From: an uncultured Metabacillus sp.
Lineage (GTDB): Bacteria; Bacillota; Bacilli; Bacillales; Bacillaceae
Length of the DNA: 64,000 nucleotides
Direction: 5' to 3'
NCBI RefSeq assembly: GCF_947503125.1
Contig: NZ_CANNCR010000010.1
Span: 1-64,000, forward strand
Shown here piece after piece: positions 25,703-25,730 of this stretch; positions within the stretch are counted from its first letter, which is position 1; each line of letters starts with the position of its first letter. Both the position numbers and the translations under genes were made by a program. The notes below the pieces were generated by a model. It worked only from the letters and a program-made list of their open reading frames with translations, searched no databases and was not told where the DNA came from.

Positions 25703-25730
25703 ACTTCCGATAATATATATTATGTAAACT
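25703..25730 (+). other. Candidate chromosomal dif site (Xer recombination site)
   Basis: The 28 bp read as an 11-bp arm ACTTCCGATAA, a 6-bp centre TATATA and an 11-bp arm TTATGTAAACT. As I recall the B. subtilis site (arm ACTTCCTAGAA, same centre, same right arm), the centre and the XerD-type arm are identical and only three bases differ, all in the XerC-type arm. Compared with a general Firmicutes consensus there is about one mismatch. It lies 33 bp from the stop codon of a XerS-type recombinase, at the point where gene orientation switches. Together this strongly suggests the site of chromosome-dimer resolution at the replication terminus. Confidence 0.85.

Follow-up and report, generated by a model that had tools for sequence, protein, structure and literature searches.

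The 64,000-nucleotide stretch analysed here (the window; contig NZ_CANNCR010000010.1 from an uncultured Metabacillus sp.) carries a chromosomal dif site and, directly beside it, a gene for a XerS-family tyrosine recombinase. It is probable that two dimer-resolution systems, XerCD/dif and XerS with a site of its own, lie within 1.3 kb of each other at the Metabacillus terminus, where the roles of XerS and of a hairpin next to dif are those that we infer from comparison of sequences. The dif site, at 25703-25730 on the forward strand, is real, canonical and by itself ordinary. The locus is unusual for three features that go beyond the first-pass annotation of this DNA: the XerS recombinase adjacent to dif, the site that belongs to XerS, and a hairpin placed in helical phase with dif.

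The dif site reads ACTTCCGATAATATATATTATGTAAACT and has the 28-bp, 11+6+11 layout, with a XerC arm ACTTCCGATAA (25703-25713), a TATATA centre (25714-25719) and a XerD arm TTATGTAAACT (25720-25730), all on the forward strand. The centre and the XerD arm are exactly as the first-pass annotation had claimed, whereas the XerC arm differs from the B. subtilis dif by two letters and not by three (the letters of the B. subtilis site are also present in relatives). The genome search which that annotation had called for, run with up to 3 mismatches rather than the 4 suggested, returned a single match in the 5.44-Mb draft genome of 244 contigs, and the reversed pattern returned 0. At the same limit there is 1 match in the window and 0 in 100 dinucleotide shuffles, and the runner-up in the 136-kb contig, off the site, has 9 mismatches. 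The cumulative G-C curve, computed over the whole 136-kb contig, has its maximum at 25,757, at a distance of 27 bp from dif. In 8-kb bins the skew is positive in the three before 24,001 and negative in 14 of 14 from 24,001 onward; one local reversal at about 56-59 kb, seen in 2-kb windows, counts against a clean switch at dif. In the same contig, non-overlapping open reading frames of at least 150 amino acids number 19 on the plus and 2 on the minus strand to the left of dif, and 7 and 75, respectively, to its right. Both XerC (G000:C1:257672, 354.6 bits) and XerD (G000:C8:89191, 408 bits) are encoded elsewhere in the source genome, above the curated cut-offs, and we propose that they recombine this site. 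The consensus-like build, the single copy, the position at the skew switch and the two recombinases in the genome all bear out a near-consensus dif that marks the terminus. The further statement that dif fixes where the replication forks meet was too strong: a survey holds that the position of dif is correlated with the termination point but not causally linked to it (PMC3025954).

The xerS gene occupies 25764-26858 on the reverse strand, its stop lying 33 bp from dif. Its product scores 404.9 bits against the family profile NF003462 (cut-off 267) and also matches Pfam Phage_integrase. Counting from the ATT at 26852, residues R205, K229, H305, R308 and Y340 are shared by 98% or more of the 125 XerS-like proteins aligned, and we take them to be the catalytic residues of the tyrosine-recombinase family. 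There is no ATG at the usual start either in the window (26847-26852) or in M. bambusae (L040), where ATT/ATA or ATC follows the ribosome-binding site; the codon that is ATG in relatives is ATA here, at 26849-26847.

Directly upstream of xerS is a 28-bp inverted repeat, ATTACGTCAAATATAAATTTGACGTAAT (26902-26929, reverse strand), which has the position and build of difSL, the site of the streptococcal XerS system, and which we call the XerS site. Its common form is ATTACGTAAAATATAAATTTGACGTAAT; the window copy differs from this by one change, and its arms form a perfect repeat. Allowing up to 5 mismatches, the site is present in 80 of 80 named loci, directly upstream of xerS in 78 and about 1.9 kb upstream in two from Sporolactobacillus (L117 and L118), and it is identical over all 28 bp in 52 of 81 sequences. 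Two-sided changes that keep the symmetry occur in 9 sequences each at position pairs 2/27 and 4/25. Among 41 relatives the site was found in 19, at one place each and always at xerS; these are the 18 same-genus genomes in which xerS abuts dif or a variant of dif, and G040. It was not found at 7 plasmid-type or unlinked xerS loci (L156-L162). At five of these (L157, L158, L160, L161 and L162; L016, L028 and L031 are the same places) a different upstream site, AATNAACAATAAANNTATTATGTAAACA, is conserved with 0-2 mismatches. This second site was not found at L156, and L159 lay outside the comparison.

The class-level search covered 151 genomes, 33 of which have XerS over the cut-off. All 6 Streptococcus-like genomes, so labelled from their XerS and its site, carry difSL, TTTCCGAAAAACTATAATTTTCTTGAAA, at the corresponding place, with one change in L181, and the difSL half-sites quoted in a review agree with these letters (PMC5357621). 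A probable sigma-A promoter of xerS, identified by consensus match only, lies at 26883-26911 on the reverse strand: TTGACG within the XerS site, 17 bp, and TAAAAT (sigma-A-type consensus matches number 13 in the stretch and 10.4 in shuffles). The right half-site supplies the -35 box, and the same geometry with a 17-bp spacer is seen in the 3 Streptococcus-like loci examined for it. In 63 of 81 loci a -10 box with at least 4 of the 6 letters of TATAAT follows at a spacing of exactly 17 bp, and the 11 other spacings tested give counts of 1-42. With the -35 box lying inside the XerS site, XerS bound there should repress xerS, and autoregulation is likely.

A total of 69 genomes were examined for XerC and XerD, 30 with both the XerC and the XerD models and a further 39 with the XerD model alone. 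In the first set, a single XerC/D-type recombinase, fitting the XerD model better, is found in 12 of 12 Neobacillus-type genomes tested, all of which keep XerS. A single XerD-like recombinase is also found in Caenibacillus, Terrilactibacillus and Sporolactobacillus (weak in the last, 272 bits), M. crassostreae has a truncated XerC, and the remaining 14 have both XerC and XerD. In the second set, both recombinases are present in 21 genomes and a single one in 12, namely nine genomes of family f23 plus G202, G040 and G038, where the next match reaches at most 198 bits; the identity of this protein as XerD is unsure in five f23 genomes and G038 because it scores below the XerD cut-off. The 6 Streptococcus-like genomes have no match of XerC/D type over 201 bits with the XerD model.

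The state of dif follows that of XerC closely, in a count that merges three dif searches, one of them with a looser pattern. An ordinary dif (up to 3 mismatches) is present in 29 of 35 XerC-positive genomes, and the other six (G001, G004, G019, G059, G061 and G063) carry a variant in which the XerD arm begins with CCC, that of G004 passing the looser pattern. Where XerC was not found or is truncated, a dif match exists in 3 of 34 genomes and none is a full site beside xerS: the one in G042 is about 2.3 Mb from xerS, and those in G113 and G202 have a XerD arm but lack the XerC arm. Among 45 Neobacillus-type loci, 39 carry the XerD arm, AGTTTACATAA, unaltered and 6 carry it with one change, whether or not the hairpin is used to locate it. 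Their XerC arm has been lost: across 37 distinct sites, of which 11 come from XerC-tested genomes and 26 from genomes outside the XerC test, the mean match is 6.3-6.5 of 11 letters, versus 10.3 in 9 XerC-positive sites. A XerS tree of 59 rows, built quickly and having weak forks and long branches, implies no fewer than 4 changes of the XerC state. Loss of XerC and decay of its arm, with XerS kept, is the pattern expected of XerS replacing XerCD, and suggests such a replacement. Conversion of the Neobacillus XerC arm into a second XerD arm was considered and rejected, as the right arm matches the XerD type in 7.1-7.7 of 11 letters there, much like the 7.2 of XerC-positive genomes.

These observations are consistent with the following model. 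The xerS product would act on the inverted repeat that lies directly in front of xerS and, by binding where the site overlaps the -35 box, would repress xerS. Lineages in which XerS suffices would lose XerC and the XerC arm of dif, while XerD and its arm would be retained for a second duty of XerD, probably the unloading of the SMC complex. Retention of XerD and its arm without XerC fits a role in SMC unloading, a half-site being unable to recombine, and such a role has been reported for XerD of B. subtilis. The hairpin, on the XerC side and helically phased with the XerD arm, would be an accessory site that aids XerD or a partner at the terminus.

This hairpin element, TCTCA-N6-AAGTTTACTTAAG-N4-TGAGA, covers 33 bp on the reverse strand (25648-25680), 22 bp from the XerC arm, with a full stem at about 25638-25690. 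The general form is TCTCA-N6-AAGTATACTTAAG-N4-TGAGA. Read on the forward strand, the core at 25658-25668, TTAAGTAAACT, shares 10 of 11 letters with the XerD arm, in the same direction and 62 bp apart, and TTAWGTAAACT occurs at two places only in the 136-kb contig, the hairpin core and dif. A search of 41 relatives with up to 3 mismatches finds the hairpin at 29 places in 27 of them. By hand comparison, all of these places but G002:C1:1033334, 28 in number, lie 13-23 bp from dif or from a variant or half site of it. The hairpin stands beside dif with or without xerS (without, for example, in G014, G021 and G022 and at L206, L207, L212 and L213). A wider scripted scan recovered it at 105 of 140 loci, 88 of them distinct; some genomes were counted twice. 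In 81 distinct rows with a clear XerD arm, which are related and hence given no probability, the distance from the hairpin to the start of the XerD arm is either 39-42 bp (36 rows) or 49-52 bp (45 rows), with none between; in the 45 Neobacillus-type loci it is 39-41 bp in 41 and 49-51 bp in 4. The two spacings are one helical turn apart, which argues for protein contact on one face of the helix, and the hairpin may be an accessory, XerD-linked site. Tentatively, we take this further: the dif of Bacillaceae could be bipartite, the 28-bp site and the hairpin, whose XerD-half-site-like core would share a helical face with the XerD arm, forming a XerD platform for a non-recombination job (SMC unloading or anchoring of the terminus). 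That job would preserve XerD and its arm once dimer resolution had passed to the neighbouring XerS and XerC had decayed, and the Metabacillus locus would be a surviving intermediate between resolution by two recombinases and by one.

Alternatively, the hairpin might be a mere transcription terminator that insulates dif from the flanking genes. On either strand it folds very stably (-19.1 and -22.4 kcal/mol, z about -7), its xerS strand ends in a T-rich tail in the window, and pairing at the outer stem positions 3, 4, 5 and 7 is somewhat more frequent than in shuffles. Given the stability on both strands, a terminator role alongside another one is possible. As the whole explanation it is somewhat unlikely, since the TCTCA/TGAGA stem letters and much of the AAGTATACTTAAG loop are strongly conserved, which a terminator would not need, and since the distances to the XerD arm fall into two narrow classes, one helical turn apart. 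Moreover, the hairpin travels with dif to plasmids and phages that have other neighbour genes, and a terminator scan did not list it, although that scan allows loops of 3-8 only. The pairing of the outer stem was not accepted as evidence that establishes an RNA: it is modestly above shuffles, which ignore relatedness. Rfam gave a single match, MIR5565, with an E-value of 0.27 and below the gathering score.

The plasmid and phage records, searched with the 100-bp stretch of dif plus hairpin, bring in a second alternative, namely a cer-like accessory sequence for Xer recombination, a topological filter or activator, in place of a site for SMC unloading. Of the 223 plasmid records that match this stretch 15 reach a coverage of at least 80%, as do 5 of the 120 phage records, and many of the partial matches lie in Enterococcus. 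A strict hairpin at 49-51 bp is present in 8 of 11 such high-coverage loci that were read, from B. velezensis, B. halotolerans, B. licheniformis, B. subtilis, B. amyloliquefaciens and the phages PJN02 and FADO; two others have one arm letter changed (one of them is pBS72), and one, from Peribacillus, has the first half only. In these 1.3-kb stretches xerS is not annotated; the Peribacillus plasmid has one 9 kb away. Two of the 11, L236 and L237, whose TATATA centre is exact, are probably parts of chromosomes deposited as plasmids. Leaving these two out, the plasmids with the strict element measure 58-212 kb and the phages about 165 kb, and replicons of this kind must resolve multimers, as a cer-like role would have it. 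However, the hairpin is also kept at the Neobacillus remnant, which lacks the XerC arm and so should not be a XerCD substrate. In addition, cassettes flanked by dif of 28-30 bp were excised in B. subtilis (PMC4030025), so that the hairpin is seemingly not strictly needed. We therefore regard the cer-like role as somewhat unlikely.

The two-system reading could also fail on the side of XerS. The dif could be an ordinary one with an unrelated neighbour, xerS being a passing integrase and the 28-bp repeat merely its operator. Xer-like integrases are common, the source genome holds 6 further matches to this XerS protein, relatives of it occur in 517 plasmid records, and within the genus G010 and G011 have dif with XerS unlinked and G014 has dif with no XerS found over the cut-off. 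On the other hand, XerS is over the cut-off in 20 of 21 same-genus genomes. Its match ends at most 0.6 kb from dif in 14 of the 17 that have dif (up to 3 mismatches), and a dif variant lies downstream of xerS in G001, G004, G012 and G019; in total, 18 of 21 genomes have xerS next to dif or to a variant of it. Loci of Neobacillus, Halalkalibacter, Aquibacillus and Oceanobacillus likewise have xerS adjacent to dif, to a dif variant or to a dif remnant. The passing integrase is improbable in the face of this linkage, of a score far above the XerS cut-off and of the joint disappearance of XerC and the XerC arm in XerS lineages. It is still less probable that XerS acts on dif itself at the XerC arm, as the partner of XerD in place of XerC, for despite the tight linkage and the retention of XerD without XerC in the Neobacillus-type genomes, XerS has its own, far better conserved inverted-repeat site, and the former XerC arm is unconserved in XerC-less genomes, where an arm bound by XerS should be conserved.

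Several observations weigh against the reading of two adjacent systems with a phased accessory site. First, the co-loss is strong but not perfect, as the six XerC-positive genomes with a CCC-type XerD arm illustrate, and XerC was judged with the XerD model alone in 39 of the 69 genomes. Second, XerS may act elsewhere or be idle, the start codon being ATA here; XerS also occurs on plasmids, and in family f41 all 8 of 8 genomes have XerS with XerC kept, at least 19 kb from dif or on another contig. Third, one-sided changes of the XerS site equal or outnumber the two-sided ones (9 at 2/27 and 17 at 4/25), the window site is alone among 81 in its symmetry at positions 8/21, and its letters differ from those of difSL, the build being shared. 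Fourth, 35 of the 140 loci scanned gave no hairpin, a few of them being chance dif matches or carrying a more degenerate copy, and its presence on plasmids and phages is something that a role in SMC unloading only would not predict. Finally, the functional claims are drawn from sequence.

Among known systems, the dif/XerCD of B. subtilis (CodV-RipX) is alike in the 28-bp, 11+6+11 site, the single copy, the skew switch and XerC and XerD encoded elsewhere; it is different in that here a second recombinase with its own site abuts dif, together with the phased hairpin. The hairpin is also seen on plasmids of the B. subtilis group, in a comparison that leaves out the B. subtilis 168 chromosome. Sites bound by XerD for SMC unloading, said to have been described by Karaboja et al. 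in 2021, are XerD-dependent and located at the terminus. They are reportedly independent of XerC and dif, which would fit the XerC-less Neobacillus sites; the hairpin core is likened to them through its resemblance to the XerD arm (10 of 11 letters), not through the motif of those sites. The cer site of E. coli plasmids (ArgR/PepA), as reviewed in PMC5357621, likewise combines a Xer core site with an adjoining accessory sequence and is on plasmids too; the likeness is one of layout, and the hairpin differs in being also chromosomal and in having no known binding protein.

The streptococcal and lactococcal XerS/difSL system, covered by the same review (PMC5357621), shares with the window a XerS-family protein of about 360 amino acids and an imperfect inverted repeat beside its gene at the terminus, and the right half-site doubles as the -35 box in Streptococcus-like loci too. 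The window XerS is 38% identical to the two Streptococcus-like proteins compared. It belongs with this family by its score over the cut-off, its catalytic residues and the inverted repeat by the gene at the terminus; it departs from it in the letters of the site and in that XerC, XerD and a canonical dif are retained, so that XerS is not the sole resolution recombinase. In one Lactobacillus helveticus genome, xerC, xerD and xerS occur together, with xerS near the skew switch, which the authors called a 'possible intermediate'; no dif or XerS site was found there (PMC3025954), whereas here both are present and adjacent. A mobile element of Bacillus cereus combines a difSL-like motif with an integrase of the XerS superfamily (PMC4876114). 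This resembles the pair described here, but the element is mobile and not at the terminus, and its authors saw no significant similarity of the integrase to streptococcal XerS. We found no description of the hairpin element or of the xerS-dif pairing in searches of an open-access library; subscription papers may mention them.

The locus bears on the origin of single-recombinase systems from XerCD/dif. This question is testable because the two systems lie within 1.3 kb of each other in a genus that has cultured strains, and the Neobacillus-type genomes represent the stage after loss of XerC. The separate survival of XerD and its arm offers a natural dissection of the recombination and non-recombination roles of XerD. 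In Bacillus, which is a model group, and in its plasmids and phages, the hairpin is a candidate for a dif component that has so far been missing.

Some further observations concern the surroundings of xerS and dif in relatives. The CCC-type dif variant, with the XerD arm CCCGAACATAA or similar, lies downstream of xerS in several genera (L041, L044, L045, L048, L050, L053, L054, L071, L097 and L100). In the 8 of these loci with open reading frames listed (not L048 and L100), a small gene of about 123-131 codons, its product beginning MWKL or MWKS, stands between xerS and the variant. By eye the protein has two ribbon-helix-helix-like repeats, and the two tested have no Pfam match over the cut-off; it is possibly a DNA-binding partner or the trace of an insertion at dif. 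In Oceanobacillus, a gene resembling a LAGLIDADG homing endonuclease lies between xerS and dif (L071:6209-7012, with similar reading frames at L092 and L097); the L071 gene, the one searched, matches Pfam LAGLIDADG_3 (E-value 8e-17). A recent mobile insertion of xerS at dif is weakened as an explanation, no second dif being found in the source genome; for CCC-type loci with extra genes between xerS and dif, it is possible. A second, half-destroyed dif, consisting of the XerC arm and centre only and with its own hairpin, is present in G001 (L173, G001:C23, 1423-1505), whose CCC-type dif sits with xerS on another contig. In L190-L192 (G178, G143 and G168), from a small-genome family with XerC, XerD and XerS, dif is about 0.5 kb upstream of xerS and thus on the opposite side of the gene. 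Finally, in 5 of the 6 Streptococcus-like loci (L176-L180) a palindrome seen by eye directly after the xerS stop, ACATAATATAAATTATGT or near it, resembles a XerD-type dif remnant.
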